Assembly: GCA_020852055.1 (NCBI GenBank)
Contig: JADZBP010000129.1
Coordinates: forward strand, 1 to 64,000
Reading direction: 5' to 3'
DNA from: Candidatus Latescibacterota bacterium
GTDB taxonomy: Bacteria; Latescibacterota; UBA2968; UBA8231
DNA: 64,000 nt
Part shown: one piece after another, positions 56,941-64,000 of the stretch
Layout of the letters: each line of letters starts with the position of its first letter
Numbering within the stretch: the first letter of the stretch is position 1
Notes under the pieces: model-generated
The model's database searches: none
Told to the model about the DNA's origin: nothing
Seen by the model: the letters and a program-made list of their open reading frames with translations, nothing else
Program-made: the position numbers and the translations under genes

Positions 56941-57762
56941 ATGAAGCCTGCCTGCCGCACCCCTGAATTGCCCGACCCCCTGCAGATCGGCACCCGGTTC
57001 CTGCTGTCTTTCGAGGGCACCGAAGCCGCTGGCCCCCCATACCACGGCCGGCTCCAGGACCTGAGCGCGGACGGCAGCCTGTGTATCGACGCCCCGGCTC
57101 ATTTCCAGCCACTGCGGGGTACTCAGGTGACCCTGCAGAGCCTGGATGCGGTGAAGTACCGTTTTTCCACTGAGGTCATCGGCTACAACCGGCTCCAGGG
57201 CCGGCTGCCGGTGCTGCTGGTCAAACCACCCCGGCGCATCGAGGCGCAGGCCCCGCCCCGGCCCCGCTCGCGCTCGGCCTTCCGCATCGCCGCCGCACTG
57301 CGGGTGGATACCACCTGGACCGAGGACGACCGCAAGATCAGCGCCCACGGGGTGGTCGCCAATCTCAGCGGTGGCGGGGCCCAACTCTTTCTGCGCCGAC
57401 GCCCGGCAGCCAGCACCCTCACCCTCGAGATGGCGCTGCCCCAGGGTTTCATCGAGGAGGCCGCCCGCCGGCAGCTCACCCGCAACGGTCCCACCCTGAC
57501 CAGCACCGCCCTCTACCGCGAGCTGTTCCGCAACACCTGCGAGCGGATACGCCGTTCCTTTGCCGAGCTCCAGGCACGGATCGTGCACGTGGAGACGCGG
57601 CAGACTCAGCAGGGGCCGGTGTACGGTCTATCCCTGGCTTTCGCCGCCCCTCACGAAGGCTGTTTCCGCCTGGTCAGCTACCTGGAGCGGCAGGCCATCC
57701 GCAAAGGGGTGACCGGTGATCCCGGCGCCCGGGCCAATCCCTCGCTGGCCAAGGTGGCCTGA
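56941..57762 (+). CDS. PilZ-domain protein (YcgR-like flagellar brake architecture)
   Basis: N-terminal beta-domain 'IGTRFLLSFEGTEAAGPPYHGRLQDLSADGSLCIDAP', then 'RSRSAFRIAAALRVDTTW...GVVANLSGGGAQLFLRR' (RxxxR...N/D-x-S-x-x-G PilZ motif). Confidence 0.75.
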   Translation: MKPACRTPELPDPLQIGTRFLLSFEGTEAAGPPYHGRLQDLSADGSLCIDAPAHFQPLRGTQVTLQSLDAVKYRFSTEVIGYNRLQGRLPVLLVKPPRRIEAQAPPRPRSRSAFRIAAALRVDTTWTEDDRKISAHGVVANLSGGGAQLFLRRRPAASTLTLEMALPQGFIEEAARRQLTRNGPTLTSTALYRELFRNTCERIRRSFAELQARIVHVETRQTQQGPVYGLSLAFAAPHEGCFRLVSYLERQAIRKGVTGDPGARANPSLAKVA

Positions 57763-57886: not shown

Positions 57887-58366
57887 ATGGCTGCTCCCCG
57901 CACCAGTTTTGCCCAATACCTCCTCGGTTCGATCTCGCTGGAACGGCCGCCCTTTTTCTATGCCTATGGCGGCATGTGGCTGCACCTGATGGTGGGTGCC
58001 ATCCTCGTCCCCTTGCTCTCGCTGCCTTTCCTCGGTTCGCTCAGTTCCCTGCTGATCGCCAGCCTCAGCCTGGGCATCGTCGTCTATGCCGTGCTGGCAC
58101 GCGAATACGGTCTGCTGATCAACCTGCTTTCGTACGGCCTCTCCCTGGCCCAACTCACCCCGCTCAAGGCCGACCACGGCCCGCTGATGGCGGTGGCCAT
58201 CCTCCTGGCCATGGCCTCCTGCTACCTGATCCTCAGCCAGCAGTACCGCCGCTACATCAAGGAGGTGTTCGGCGACGAACACGGCATCCCGATGTGGATC
58301 ACCGGCATCATCCTCCTGGTGATCATCATGCTCTTCCTCTACGGCCTGAACCTCGTCAACTCCTAA
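57887..58366 (+). CDS. polytopic membrane protein (Yip1-like?)
   Basis: 159 aa with several TM segments; TTGACA-18-TACCTT upstream at 57814-57843; convergent with mraY. Confidence 0.6.
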   Translation: MAAPRTSFAQYLLGSISLERPPFFYAYGGMWLHLMVGAILVPLLSLPFLGSLSSLLIASLSLGIVVYAVLAREYGLLINLLSYGLSLAQLTPLKADHGPLMAVAILLAMASCYLILSQQYRRYIKEVFGDEHGIPMWITGIILLVIIMLFLYGLNLVNS

Positions 58367-59469
58367 CGGATCTTTAGCGTCGCCAGCCCGCACAAGGCGA
58401 GGATGCCGGCCACGATCCAGAACCGGGTGACGATCTTGGTGTCGGCCAGGCCCTGGGCCTGGAAATGGTGGTGCACCGGCGAGCGGTAGAAGAAGCGCCG
58501 GCCCAGCCACTTGATCCCGATCTTCTCCTGCACCAGCACCGAAAACGCCTCCCCCACGAAGATCCCGCCCACCATCAGGAACAGGAACTCCTGCTTGATC
58601 AGCACCGCCACCGTGCCCAGCAGTCCGCCCAGGGCCATGGAGCCGGTGTCACCCATGATCACGTTCGCCGGGTAGGAATTGAACCAGAGGAAACCCAGGC
58701 AAGCGCCAAAAACGATGGAGCAGATCACCGCCACCTCGCCCACCCCCGGCATAAAGGGATAGATCAGGAACTCGGCGATACGGATATTGCTGCACACGTA
58801 GGCAAAAACCCCGAAGACCGCCACCACAAAGGCCACCGGCACGATGGCCAGGCCGTCGAGGCCGTCGGCGAGGTTGACCGAGTTGGAGATGGCGATCACC
58901 GTGAAGATGGTGAAGGGCACATACCCCCACGACAGGTTCAGCACCGGCGTCTTGAGGAAGGGCAGGTACAACTCGGTGGCCAGACCGGCAGGCACCGGCG
59001 AGGTGTTTTCGAGCACGTAGAAGATGCCGAAGACCAACCCGTAGGTGAATTGCAGGATCAGCTTGGCCCGTTCCGAAAGACCCCGATCGCTGCTGCCGTA
59101 GCGGACCTTCATGTAGTCGTCCACCGCCCCCAGCCCCGCGAACCAGGCAAAGCCGCCCAGGCACCACAGGACAAAGGGGTTGTAGAGCTTGCACCACAGC
59201 AGCGCGGCCAGCAGCACAGCGGTGATGATCAAACCGCCGCCATAGGTCTTGGTCTGGGGATCACCGGCAGGAAAATGAGCGTAGCTGCGCACCACATCCC
59301 GCTGGCCGCTGCGGTAGAAGTGCAGAATGAGCCGGCCGCCGAAAAGGATGGTGAAGAGCAGGGCGGTGATGGCCCCGGCGATGGCGCGGAAACTGATGGA
59401 GTTGAGCAGGCGCAGGAAGGACAGGGCCTCGAAGTGGTCGAAGAGATAGGTGCCCAGGTAGTAGATCAC
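58363..59469 (-). CDS. mraY: phospho-N-acetylmuramoyl-pentapeptide-transferase
   Basis: 'VDDYMKVRYGSSDRGLSERAKLILQ', 'NSVNLADGLDGLAI', 'ANVIMGDTGSMALGG', 'RSPVHHHFQAQGLADTKIVTRFWI'. Confidence 0.96.
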   Translation of the reverse strand: MIYYLGTYLFDHFEALSFLRLLNSISFRAIAGAITALLFTILFGGRLILHFYRSGQRDVVRSYAHFPAGDPQTKTYGGGLIITAVLLAALLWCKLYNPFVLWCLGGFAWFAGLGAVDDYMKVRYGSSDRGLSERAKLILQFTYGLVFGIFYVLENTSPVPAGLATELYLPFLKTPVLNLSWGYVPFTIFTVIAISNSVNLADGLDGLAIVPVAFVVAVFGVFAYVCSNIRIAEFLIYPFMPGVGEVAVICSIVFGACLGFLWFNSYPANVIMGDTGSMALGGLLGTVAVLIKQEFLFLMVGGIFVGEAFSVLVQEKIGIKWLGRRFFYRSPVHHHFQAQGLADTKIVTRFWIVAGILALCGLATLKIR

Positions 59470-61475
59470 ACGCCCTCCTTGGCGAGCAGGTTTACCTCGG
59501 CGACCAGCTGCCGCAGGTTTTCCTTGAGGGGAAACTCGGGTTTGAAATAGGGCGACATCGCCAGGATCTGGTCCATACGCTCATTGACGGCCAGCGCTTC
59601 GAGCACCCGGCGCTGGAGCAGCCGCCGCAGGGTGGACACCACCTCCTGGCGAAACTGCCAGTTGGGGTGGAGGTAGAAAGCCTGCAACCGATCCAGCACC
59701 TGGGGCCGCACCGCAATGGCGCCCAGCGCCCGCAGGACCTGCACCACCACCCCGGACCGGGCATCGCCGAGGCGCTCGAGCAGCGCCTCCTCCAGCGCCT
59801 CACTGGCGGGGAAGAGTTCGCCGATAATCTGGGCGGCGGCGGCGCGCACCTCGAAATAAGGGTCCTCGCGCAGGGCCCGCAGCAAGGCCTCCTCCACCAC
59901 CCCGTCGGCCACCCGCAAGAGGCGGATGCCGTGCTCGACGATATTGCGCCGCAGGATGCCCACATGGATGAAATCCCCGCCGCTGCAGCGCCGCAGCCAG
60001 CTGGCCCGGCGGCGGTCTCCCAGCATGGCCAGCAGCAGGGGCAGCCGCTCGCGGTACTGGAGCTGGCCCACCAGCTTGATGCCCACGCTGCGCCGCCCCA
60101 GCGGGATCTCGTACCAGCCTTCCGAGGCCAGCAGGCGGTCGGCCTGGTAGCGCAGATAGGCCAGTTCGCCGGCCTCGAGGCGCTCCACCCCGCCGGTCTC
60201 GCGCAGGCGGCGCTGCACGTGGCGCAGCAGGGTGTTGGGGTCACCCGGCAGGCCCGGCGGGCGCTCGGGAAACTCCAGGCTCAGCGGCGCCGGCCGGCGG
60301 CCCTGGGTCAGGTCCTCGATCTCCCGGAGAATCAGTTCCAGGCTGTCGCGGCGCACCGCGGCCCGGGCAGCCTCGCTCATGCGCTGCCGCCGCTCCGGCG
60401 CGGCGAGTACTTCCAGCACCTGGCAGGCCAGGCGCTGCCCGTCGAGGCGCGACACCACCTGCCCTTCGGACCAGAAGGCCTCCTGGTAGAGCACCTGGGC
60501 CGCCCCTGCCTGCTCCAGCTCGCGGGCGTTGAGCGCCTGATGGTCCTCGGCGGCGGTGACCAAGGGCACGATCAGCGAGGGCAAGCCGCAGACGCAGATC
60601 TCGGTCAGGGTGCCAGCCCCGCCCCGGCAGATCACCAGGTCGGCGGCGGCATAGGCCTCCTGGATGTCCTCCATATATTCGAAACAGCGGTACCAGGCGC
60701 TGGTGTCGCCGGTGATACCCTGGGCCTCGAGCTGCCGCCGGGTATCGGCCACCGCCCGGTAGTCATCCCCCTCGTAGCGGCCGGTGATGTGCAGCACCAG
60801 CAGATCCGGCTCCTGGCGCCAGCGCGGCAACGCCTCGACCACCGCCTCGTTGATCGCCCGCGAGCCGCCCGAACCGCCAAAGGCCAGCACCACCCGCGCC
60901 GCGGCCGGAATGCCCAGCCGCTGACGGCTCGCCTCGCGGCGGGCCTCCAGCACCTCGCGGCGGACCGGGTACCCCACCACCGCCACCCGCCGCATCTCGA
61001 ACCAGCGCCCGGCCTGTTCGAAGGCCACGCCGATGCGGTGCGCCAGACGGCCTCCCAGCTGGTTGAGCAACCCCGGATAGGCGTTGGGCTCGTAGAGGAA
61101 GATCTTGGCCCGCGAGAGTCCCAGTTTGCCCAAGAGACCAGCGGCCAGCACGATGGGCGCACTGACGTAACCGCCGGTGGCGATGATCAACTGGGGCCGG
61201 AAACGCAGCAGGATGAGGACCGCCTTGAGCATGCCCAGGGCCAGCACGGCGGCAAAGAGCAGCAGCGCCCCCGGAGAACGCGAGCGGGGGAAGGGCCGCG
61301 AGCGGACGAAGCACAGCGGGTAACCGCGGTTGGGCACCACCCGCGCCTCGAGCTTGTCGCGCGCCCCGACATAGAGGAACCGGGCCTCGGGCTGGGCCAG
61401 CCGGAGTTCGTCGGCAATGGCCAGCGCCGGGTACACGTGACCGCCTGTCCCACCACCGGTGAGCAGGTATCTCAT
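59466..61475 (-). CDS. murG: MurG (UDP-GlcNAc undecaprenyl-PP-MurNAc-pentapeptide GlcNAc transferase) with HEAT-like C-terminal extension
   Basis: 'YLLTGGGTGGHVYPALAIADEL', 'IIATGGYVSAPIVLAA', 'FGGSGGSRAINEAV', 'CRGGAGTLTEICVCGLPSLIVPL'; then about 300 aa of helical repeats. Confidence 0.92.
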   Translation of the reverse strand: MRYLLTGGGTGGHVYPALAIADELRLAQPEARFLYVGARDKLEARVVPNRGYPLCFVRSRPFPRSRSPGALLLFAAVLALGMLKAVLILLRFRPQLIIATGGYVSAPIVLAAGLLGKLGLSRAKIFLYEPNAYPGLLNQLGGRLAHRIGVAFEQAGRWFEMRRVAVVGYPVRREVLEARREASRQRLGIPAAARVVLAFGGSGGSRAINEAVVEALPRWRQEPDLLVLHITGRYEGDDYRAVADTRRQLEAQGITGDTSAWYRCFEYMEDIQEAYAAADLVICRGGAGTLTEICVCGLPSLIVPLVTAAEDHQALNARELEQAGAAQVLYQEAFWSEGQVVSRLDGQRLACQVLEVLAAPERRQRMSEAARAAVRRDSLELILREIEDLTQGRRPAPLSLEFPERPPGLPGDPNTLLRHVQRRLRETGGVERLEAGELAYLRYQADRLLASEGWYEIPLGRRSVGIKLVGQLQYRERLPLLLAMLGDRRRASWLRRCSGGDFIHVGILRRNIVEHGIRLLRVADGVVEEALLRALREDPYFEVRAAAAQIIGELFPASEALEEALLERLGDARSGVVVQVLRALGAIAVRPQVLDRLQAFYLHPNWQFRQEVVSTLRRLLQRRVLEALAVNERMDQILAMSPYFKPEFPLKENLRQLVAEVNLLAKEGV

Positions 61476-61613
61476 CAGGGTACTCCAGGGGACTAACAGG
61501 GGGGTCGGGAGAGGAAAAAGCTGCAGCACGGGAGGGTATCGGGGCCCGTGTCCCAATAATAGGCACAAGTCCCACGGCGGACAAGCAGCGCGCGGCGCGG
61601 TGGGCCGCAGGCC

Positions 61614-62360
61614 TCAGATCGCTTCCACGGCGCCGGCCGGCACCCAACCGCTCAGGCCGCCGGGCAGGCGCACCAGCAGCCACTCCCCCTCGCTGCGGAT
61701 CAGCGCCAGGCGGGTGCCCTCGTGCACGACGAATACCGGGGTCTGCGCGGGATCGGGGGCGCTGCGGGCGCTGACCTCGGCGGCGATCACCACGGCCTGG
61801 GCCTGGGCCTGGCCGTAATACCGGGCGCCCAGGTAGATGCCCGCGATCACCGCCAGACACAGCGCGCCGGCAAAGAGGCCCAGGCGCCACCAGGTCCCCC
61901 AGGTCCGCTGCCACAGGCGCCATCCGCCCAGCCCGCAGGCCGCCAGAAAAACGAGGCTGAAGACCAGGCTCAACTCGTCGAGGGTGGGAAAGAGGTACAC
62001 CTCCTCCAGCCACTGCCCCACCCCGCCGGCCGGGCCGGTCTGGTCGAGCCGCAGCCCCTCGGCAAAACGCAGGTTGGCGAGCAAGTCGGCGTCGCGCGGG
62101 GCCAGGCGCCGGGCCCGTTCGTACCAGAGCACGGCCTCGCCCAGCCGGCCCGCCTTGAAGCAGGCGTTGCCCAGGTTGTAGTACACCTGCGGATCGGCGA
62201 TGCCGGCGGCCACCACCGCGAGATACGACTCCCGCGCCTGGGGGTACTCGCCCTGGCGGTAGTGTTCGTTGCCCTGGTTGAAGGCCGCCACGGCCGGGCC
62301 CTGCCCCAGCGCCGCCGACACCCAGACCAGCCATAGGCCGATGGCCAGCAGCCCCCTCAT
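61614..62360 (-). CDS. BatE-like TPR + SH3 domain membrane protein
   Basis: 'NQGNEHYRQGEYPQARESYLAVVAAGIADPQVYYNLGNACFKAGRLGEAVLWYERARRLAPRDADLLANL' TPR; C-terminal SH3-like 'ALIRSEGEWLLVRLPGGLSGWVPAGAVEAI'; overlaps BatD-like gene. Confidence 0.85.
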   Translation of the reverse strand: MRGLLAIGLWLVWVSAALGQGPAVAAFNQGNEHYRQGEYPQARESYLAVVAAGIADPQVYYNLGNACFKAGRLGEAVLWYERARRLAPRDADLLANLRFAEGLRLDQTGPAGGVGQWLEEVYLFPTLDELSLVFSLVFLAACGLGGWRLWQRTWGTWWRLGLFAGALCLAVIAGIYLGARYYGQAQAQAVVIAAEVSARSAPDPAQTPVFVVHEGTRLALIRSEGEWLLVRLPGGLSGWVPAGAVEAI

Positions 62361-64000
62361 GCCTGTTGCTCCAGCGCCGCCATCAATTCGGCGGCCCGCG
62401 CCTCGACCTGGGCCATCTCTTCGCGGGTCTGGGACCCGGAGGCAAAACGCGCGAAATCCCCGGCCGCCAGCAGTTCCTCGACCTGCTGCACCAGCGCCTC
62501 GGGCACCCCCTTTTCGGCGAGCAGTTGGACGCGGACCGGGCTGGTGAGTCCAGCAGCGGGCCTTTCGAGCCGGTCGGCCAGCAGCGCCAGTAGGGCCCGC
62601 TGGATCTCGGCGTGGAAGGCCGGGCTGTCCCCCTGCTCCCGCAACCGGGCCGCCAGGCGCAACCGGTCCCCCGCTTCGCCGCGGGCGCGGCGCCGGCGGA
62701 CCAGCGCCACGTCCCCCTCCAGGCGGTCGCGGCGGCGGCGGTGGAGCAGCAGGCCCAGACCGGCCAGCGGCACGAGGGCCTGGAACCCCCAGAAGAGGGC
62801 GCTGCGGTGCAGTTGCACGGGCGGCGAGAACACCTGCAGATCGGGTTTGATGGCGCGCAGGTCCTGGCCCAATGGCAGGACCGGGCGCGGTACGCCGGCC
62901 GGGCCGGCAGCCAGGTCCGGGGCCAGGCCGCCCTGCACCTCCAGGCGGATGGGCGAAGACTGCAGGGTGCGATACTGGCCCTGGGTCGGATCGAAGAAGG
63001 CGAACTTGACCGGCGGGATCTCCTGCGCGCCGCCCCGCTGCGGGATGAGGATGTACTCAAAACGGCGGGTGCCGCCGAAACCGGCCTCCTCCACCTTCTC
63101 CTCCGACTCCGACTTGGGCTCGTACACGGTGAAGCCCGGCAGATTGCCCAGGTCCGGGGCCTCGATGGCGTTGATATTCCCCTCGCCGCTGATCTCCACC
63201 TTGAGGGTCACCGGGTCGCCGGCAGCCACGGTGAGGGGCTGGACCTTGGCCTGGAGGGTGTAGCGGCCCACCGCGCCGCTGAACTGGGGCGGCCTGCCGG
63301 TCTGCGGCAGGGGCAGCACCTCGATGCGGAGCGGGTCGCAGGCCACCACCACTGCCTGGCCCCGGCCGCCAAAGGGGTCGTCGAGGAAGTCCCAGACACT
63401 CGTCCGTCCCCGCTGCTGCACCAGCTTGCACGAGATCGCCAGCGGCGACACCTCGTGTACGCCGTCGCCGGTGGGATAGAGCGCCATCAGGCGCAGAGGC
63501 GCCACCTGGAAGTCCGCCCCATTGATGGTCTCCACGTGCGACTTGAGCTGCTGGGCGACGTAGAGTTCCTTGGCCCAGAAGCCGGCGTAGTCGGGCACCT
63601 CCTTGAAGCCGACGCTGGTGATGGGGTAGCGGTAACACAGTTGGTATTCGAGGACCACCTGCTGGCCGACATAGACCTTCTGGCGATCGGCCCGGACCCG
63701 CACAAAGAGGTGGTCCTCCAGCTCCTGGCCCTGTGCCCCGGCGGCGCCCTTGCCGCCCGCCGGCTGACGGGCGGTGCCGGGGAGGATCTCCAGCGCGATG
63801 GCCTTGGTCTTATAAACCTCCCCGTCCAGTTCGATGCGGGCCGGGCCCAGGCTCAGCTTGCCGGTGTGGCGGGCGGTAAGGGAATAGGTCAGTTCCCGCG
63901 TGAAGGTGGTGTGGAAGTTGACCATCTCGACCCGGGTGCTGATGGCGGGGCCCTCGACGTAGAAATCCCCCAGATCCAGCTCCGGAGCCGGCACGTGGGA
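62357..64000 (-). CDS. BatD-like (oxygen tolerance) protein, 5' end outside window
   Basis: 'LDLGDFYVEGPAISTRVEMVNFHTTFTRELTYSLTARHTGKLSLGPARIELDG', 'YVGQQVVLEYQLCYRYPI'; C-terminal TM; 4 bp overlap with BatE-like gene. Confidence 0.88.
   Translation of the reverse strand, partial: SHVPAPELDLGDFYVEGPAISTRVEMVNFHTTFTRELTYSLTARHTGKLSLGPARIELDGEVYKTKAIALEILPGTARQPAGGKGAAGAQGQELEDHLFVRVRADRQKVYVGQQVVLEYQLCYRYPITSVGFKEVPDYAGFWAKELYVAQQLKSHVETINGADFQVAPLRLMALYPTGDGVHEVSPLAISCKLVQQRGRTSVWDFLDDPFGGRGQAVVVACDPLRIEVLPLPQTGRPPQFSGAVGRYTLQAKVQPLTVAAGDPVTLKVEISGEGNINAIEAPDLGNLPGFTVYEPKSESEEKVEEAGFGGTRRFEYILIPQRGGAQEIPPVKFAFFDPTQGQYRTLQSSPIRLEVQGGLAPDLAAGPAGVPRPVLPLGQDLRAIKPDLQVFSPPVQLHRSALFWGFQALVPLAGLGLLLHRRRRDRLEGDVALVRRRRARGEAGDRLRLAARLREQGDSPAFHAEIQRALLALLADRLERPAAGLTSPVRVQLLAEKGVPEALVQQVEELLAAGDFARFASGSQTREEMAQVEARAAELMAALEQQA

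Follow-up and report, generated by a model that had tools for sequence, protein, structure and literature searches.

Canonical MurG (TIGR01133; Escherichia coli structures 1f0k and 1nlm) is built from two GT28 Rossmann domains with Gly-rich loops and characteristic motifs in the catalytic region. It is debated whether lipid I and lipid II pass among MraY, MurG, and the lipid II flippase MurJ within a complex or by membrane diffusion, and complexes have been reported: MurG from Bordetella pertussis is an oligomeric scaffold for the Mur ligases (PMC6420597), and MurG complexes are reported in E. coli as well (PMC2170320). An alternative MurG encoded outside the dcw cluster, MglA, is known from Kitasatospora (PMC8092295). 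Here, we describe a MurG fused to a C-terminal HEAT-repeat solenoid and encoded directly before mraY in a 64,000-nt stretch of DNA from Candidatus Latescibacterota bacterium (contig JADZBP010000129.1, assembly GCA_020852055.1; the whole stretch is termed the window). The extension is, by profile and gene order, a HEAT family found across several phyla with MraY as its constant partner.

The fusion shares with canonical MurG both GT28 domains, the Gly-rich loops, and the catalytic-region motifs but carries about 280 additional C-terminal residues, the HEAT solenoid, and its gene is not part of the dcw cluster but sits immediately ahead of mraY. The B. pertussis and E. coli complexes resemble this arrangement in placing MurG within a multienzyme peptidoglycan precursor complex; there, MurG itself scaffolds soluble Mur ligases, whereas here an added HEAT domain is tied to MraY (and MurJ), as known from the genes. 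MglA is likewise a lipid II synthase outside the dcw cluster, but it supplements a canonical dcw MurG, whereas the fusion is the sole MurG. With other HEAT-repeat proteins (PF13646/PF02985; alphaRep, 3ltj; PP2A-A, 1b3u; CpcE/CpcF, 5n3u), the extension has in common stacked helical hairpins and a D..VR-type repeat motif, but the MraY-linked family has its own motifs (RNxGVK, GFxRRN, and FxPxFPLK, with DPYxEVR as a further signature) and separate profile scores. In the open literature searched, with most subscription papers outside the search, we found no relevant paper linking MurG or MraY to HEAT repeats and no dedicated structural adaptor for lipid II complexes; the HEAT family is undescribed in that literature.

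The MurG-HEAT fusion and its coupling to mraY

The murG-HEAT ORF runs on the minus strand from an ATG at position 61475 to a TGA at 59466 (stop codon, 59466..59468) and encodes 669 residues with no internal stop. An earlier, sequence-only reading had placed a MurG of ≈370 residues before an extension of ≈300 residues; the fusion itself is borne out and the boundary shifts, with the MurG domain, a predicted lipid II synthase, reaching to near residue 385 (residues 1–385, 60321..61475, minus strand) and the solenoid beginning near residue 413 (residues about 413–669, 59469..60239, minus strand), as supported by PF13646, AlphaFold2, an alignment of 39 HEAT-family homologues (A3), and dN/dS. The two domains are joined by a linker, residues 386 to 412 (60240..60320, minus strand), that is modeled at low confidence in the AlphaFold prediction for the full chain, with low scores around residues 400 to 410.

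In the MurG part, PF03033 (residues 4–148, 91.1 bits) and PF04101 (residues 195–373, 107.5 bits) both exceed their cut-offs, and TIGR01133 matches over residues 3 to 383 (E = 9e-69, 232–235 bits), just under its curated cut-off of 250.25. This cut-off is likewise missed by the remaining fused MurGs checked and by the best matches from five of 14 well-known control genomes, four of them archaeal; the sub-cut-off score is best read from sequence as the mark of a divergent MurG branch. E. coli MurG (1f0k) aligns with the fusion at E = 1.8e-35 along most of the enzyme's length, including the Gly-rich loops and catalytic region (GGTGGH, TGGYVSAP, GGS.G, and CRGGAGTLTE), and the core MurG residues are invariant across 32 fusions. 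The genome of origin, which also has dcw genes and ftsZ, gives one MurG match, the fusion, with no second canonical MurG found, and each of 13 further genomes checked likewise has a single MurG; because of this, we take the fusion to be the working enzyme. Domains, motifs, and sole-MurG status underlie the assignment as a lipid II synthase, with GlcNAc transfer to lipid I as the predicted activity.

The HEAT-like fold proposed for the extension is upheld by a PF13646 match at residues 529 to 616 (35.4 bits, cut-off 27.7) and by an AlphaFold2 model computed from alignment A3, which is an all-helical solenoid of stacked antiparallel helix pairs (pLDDT 88.1, pTM 0.80; full-length chain, pLDDT 89.7, pTM 0.84). 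In the PDB, Foldseek ranks solenoids of the HEAT/ARM class highest, though with modest scores (TMq about 0.5, E about 1e-3), and viral structures gave no match. We rejected an enzymatic HEAT protein resembling deoxyhypusine hydroxylase or a lyase: conservation in alignment A3 is strongest at Y, E, R, K, N, and D residues, repeated His-Glu pairs are lacking, and Foldseek returns only generic solenoids. In comparisons of the window with four genomes of the same genus, dN/dS ranges from 0.15 to 0.19 for MurG and from 0.18 to 0.43 for the HEAT part; by this measure, the extension is under purifying selection, somewhat weaker than that on the MurG enzyme. HEAT sequences from divergent lineages share 15 to 35% identity.

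Within the phylum, we surveyed 64 genomes, 25 of which belong to family f1, the family of the window. A full-length fusion free of stops is present in 21 of these 25, two of them in single-contig assemblies; two further copies are interrupted by contig ends, and the two genomes with no match are 75 to 76% complete. The extension is thus conserved in close relatives, and in another family of this phylum, f10, a MurG-HEAT of 700 residues is encoded. An assembly frameshift joining two genes can be dismissed with near certainty, given 21 stop-free, full-length homologues in separate genomes and the occurrence of fusions across many further families.

Directly downstream of murG-HEAT lies mraY (58363..59469, minus strand), which encodes 368 residues (TIGR00445, 274.5 bits; cut-off 192). 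The two genes overlap by 4 bp (59466–59469). Overlap and coupling were read correctly from the start, but the letters are GTGA rather than ATGA, because the start codon of mraY is GTG. An AAGGAGG at 59474..59480 (minus strand), within the 3′ end of murG-HEAT, is the likely ribosome-binding site of mraY, and a GGAG at 61483..61486 (minus strand), 7 nt before the ATG, is that of murG-HEAT.

Gene partners of the HEAT family outside the phylum

A profile of the extension, applied to a first sample of genomes and then, in improved form, to a second, finds family members far outside the phylum. In the second sample, members score at least 149 bits and all other HEAT proteins at most 56 bits. In the first, mraY (located in some loci by tblastn) immediately follows HEAT in 21 of 22 outside-phylum genomes; overall, HEAT stands immediately upstream of mraY in 28 of the 30 outside-phylum genomes that carry it, with distances from HEAT stop to mraY start, in the loci read, ranging from an overlap of about 20 nt to a gap of 11 nt. 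By genome grouping, the window, genome G377 (one of seven available from its phylum), and genome G211 (one of three) represent three different phyla.

The commonest architecture is MurG-HEAT followed by mraY. Three genomes (G118, G167, and G398) encode murG, HEAT, and mraY as three genes, and six (G018, G250, G105, G382, G140, and G282) pair a stand-alone HEAT gene with mraY and have one MurG each, at or near the canonical type, elsewhere in the genome. MurJ joins in two ways: murJ adjoins murG-HEAT and mraY in two phyla (G016 and G211), and a MurG-MurJ-HEAT triple fusion of 1312 to 1324 residues, followed by mraY, is found in three genera of one lineage (G377, G388, and G389), with a PF03023 MurJ match of 301 bits in G377. 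Apparent extra N-terminal domains at loci L140 and L141 were set aside as probable out-of-frame translation of the DNA upstream.

These arrangements make it probable that HEAT is an MraY-docking adaptor that tethers MurG, and sometimes MurJ, to MraY for relay of lipid I and lipid II. The solenoid would dock on a cytoplasmic face of MraY, in a distinct lineage of that enzyme, and, fused at the MurG C terminus, would hold MurG at the membrane beside MraY; MurG could then take lipid I directly from MraY, with substrate hand-over as the presumed benefit, and MurJ, adjacent or in the same chain, would in some phyla extend the relay to export. Docking on MraY is suggested because HEAT adjoins mraY even where MurG is encoded elsewhere, because it tracks one MraY lineage and lacks copies at dcw loci, and because the MraYs linked to it differ from dcw MraYs at conserved positions. 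The sequence-only reading had imagined a scaffold for MraY, MurJ, FtsW, or a cytoskeletal partner. The idea survives in kind, with MraY first (in the 28 of 30 genomes above, and also with a separate HEAT gene) and MurJ second, as neighbor or fusion partner, and these data give no pointer to FtsW or to the cytoskeleton.

Several points weigh against docking on MraY. Gene neighborhood and fusion are signs of functional association, not of contact, and sequence conservation alone does not locate a docking face. In G144 and G420, which belong to one family, MurG-HEAT does not adjoin mraY, so that adjacency is not strictly required; a relative in that family, G285, retains the HEAT-mraY pair. Finally, two Latescibacterota families, f3 and f4, do without HEAT: their MraY is divergent, and murG is found either within the dcw cluster or at another site.

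A HEAT-linked MraY lineage and a possible order of events

In a tree of 33 HEAT-linked and 19 dcw-located MraYs, a single branch separates the two groups (100/100 support; 100% of bootstrap trees). The sampling did not steer clear of close relatives: most of the dcw sequences had been picked for their high similarity to a HEAT-linked MraY. The window MraY falls in the HEAT-linked group, and none of the dcw loci tested contains a HEAT-family match. The two groups differ at positions conserved within each; for example, residue 20 is R instead of N in HEAT-linked MraYs, and the T of the NLTDGLDGLA motif is mostly replaced by A.

This tracking of one MraY lineage bears on the possibility that HEAT is a membrane or lipid adaptor, which would gather MurG and MraY on one membrane patch by binding lipid I, undecaprenyl phosphate, or anionic lipid, without touching MraY directly. 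MurG is a peripheral membrane enzyme, and Arg, Lys, or Asn occupies several positions that hardly vary in the HEAT family (K84, R127, N128, R161, and R226 in A3), both of which would suit lipid binding; that account leaves unexplained why HEAT accompanies a single MraY lineage, with no copy next to any dcw mraY tested, and why a separate HEAT gene is coupled to mraY where MurG is elsewhere. We consider it unlikely.

Nearest the dcw side of the MraY tree lie the stand-alone HEAT genomes G250, G105, and G382 together with G167, which has a separate murG; G282 and G140 follow, and the fused forms lie further in. If the root is on the dcw side, HEAT became paired with MraY before it was fused to MurG. 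That stand-alone HEAT genes accompany only mraY in the lineages nearest dcw MraYs, and that conserved positions are altered in HEAT-linked MraYs, would also fit a HEAT that regulates MraY as a sensor, inhibitor, or activator, the fusion then serving mainly to set stoichiometry or to link this control to the following step. The extension contains no sensor or ligand domain, a HEAT solenoid alone gives no hint of signal input, and the repeated association with MurG and MurJ fits assembly better, so that we regard such a regulator as rather improbable and retain docking on MraY as the favored function.

A MurG tree built by a quick method with SH-aLRT support places all 25 fused MurGs and the adjacent, unfused MurG of G118 in one clade (SH-aLRT 99), consistent with a later, single fusion event, which is what the MurG fusion looks like. 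Genome G018 (family f2) has an ordinary MurG in a dcw cluster lacking mraY and a separate 296-residue HEAT protein directly before mraY; its MurG clusters with native dcw MurGs of its own class, and G018 thus seems to hold the HEAT-mraY half only. This placement and the fused-MurG clade together imply that the f1 cassette was either transferred in or patchily retained. In G050, an f1 genome in a single contig, the genes of the dcw cluster run ftsI-murE-murF-ftsW-murC-ftsQ-ftsA-ftsZ and leave no space for mraY or murG.

Transfer or patchy retention leads to a further possibility, that murG-HEAT-mraY travel together as a legacy of past fusion and cotranscription while HEAT serves an unrelated partner, for instance a cytoskeletal or divisome protein. 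The single clade formed by fused MurGs of distant families and the native dcw MurG kept by G018 make it probable that the cassette moved or was patchily retained, and the larger complexes reported for MurG of E. coli and B. pertussis (PMC2170320, PMC6420597) are also in keeping with other partners. Since HEAT is still coupled to mraY across very divergent lineages where the locus has no murG, we hold an unrelated partner to be very improbable.

Beyond docking on MraY, it is about an even call whether a widespread adaptor family holds MraY, MurG, and in some cases MurJ in a fixed complex for lipid II assembly, with hand-over from enzyme to enzyme to flippase, replaces the dcw mraY and murG, and evolved stepwise, with HEAT and MraY first, MurG then fused, and MurJ inserted. 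The MurG-HEAT-MraY arrangement suggests a built-in lipid II assembly line, and the natural MurG-HEAT and MurG-MurJ-HEAT chains beside mraY offer ready covalent constructs for cryo-EM and reconstitution.

MraY variants and neighboring genes

The MraY of family f1 (window, 58363–59469) has KTYGGG where most other MraYs, HEAT-linked or not, have GTPTMGG. In one HEAT-linked family, MraY carries an in-frame, Cys-rich insert of about 80 residues after residue ≈160 (L130, 9272–10726, G191; L129, 2415–3866, G327), probably in a noncytoplasmic loop. In families f3 and f4, the dcw cluster lacks mraY (L042, L043, and L045), and the only MraY, encoded elsewhere (L121–L125) with no HEAT gene nearby, is highly divergent (about 30% identity); this arrangement is a third solution in the same class.

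Relatives of the window are labeled Latescibacterota or, in three cases (L004, L005, and L008), Gemmatimonas phototrophica, Gemmatimonadetes, or Gemmatimonadaceae; the latter names are at odds with the genome grouping, which places them in the family of the window, and are probable mislabels. Directly upstream of murG-HEAT, a TPR-SH3 protein and a BatD protein are encoded (window, 61614–63994), and this Bat-type neighborhood is retained in relatives L003, L126, and L127. Convergent to mraY are genes for a PilZ-domain protein and a conserved 159-residue membrane protein with no Pfam match (window, 56941–57762 and 57887–58366), an order retained in same-genus relatives.
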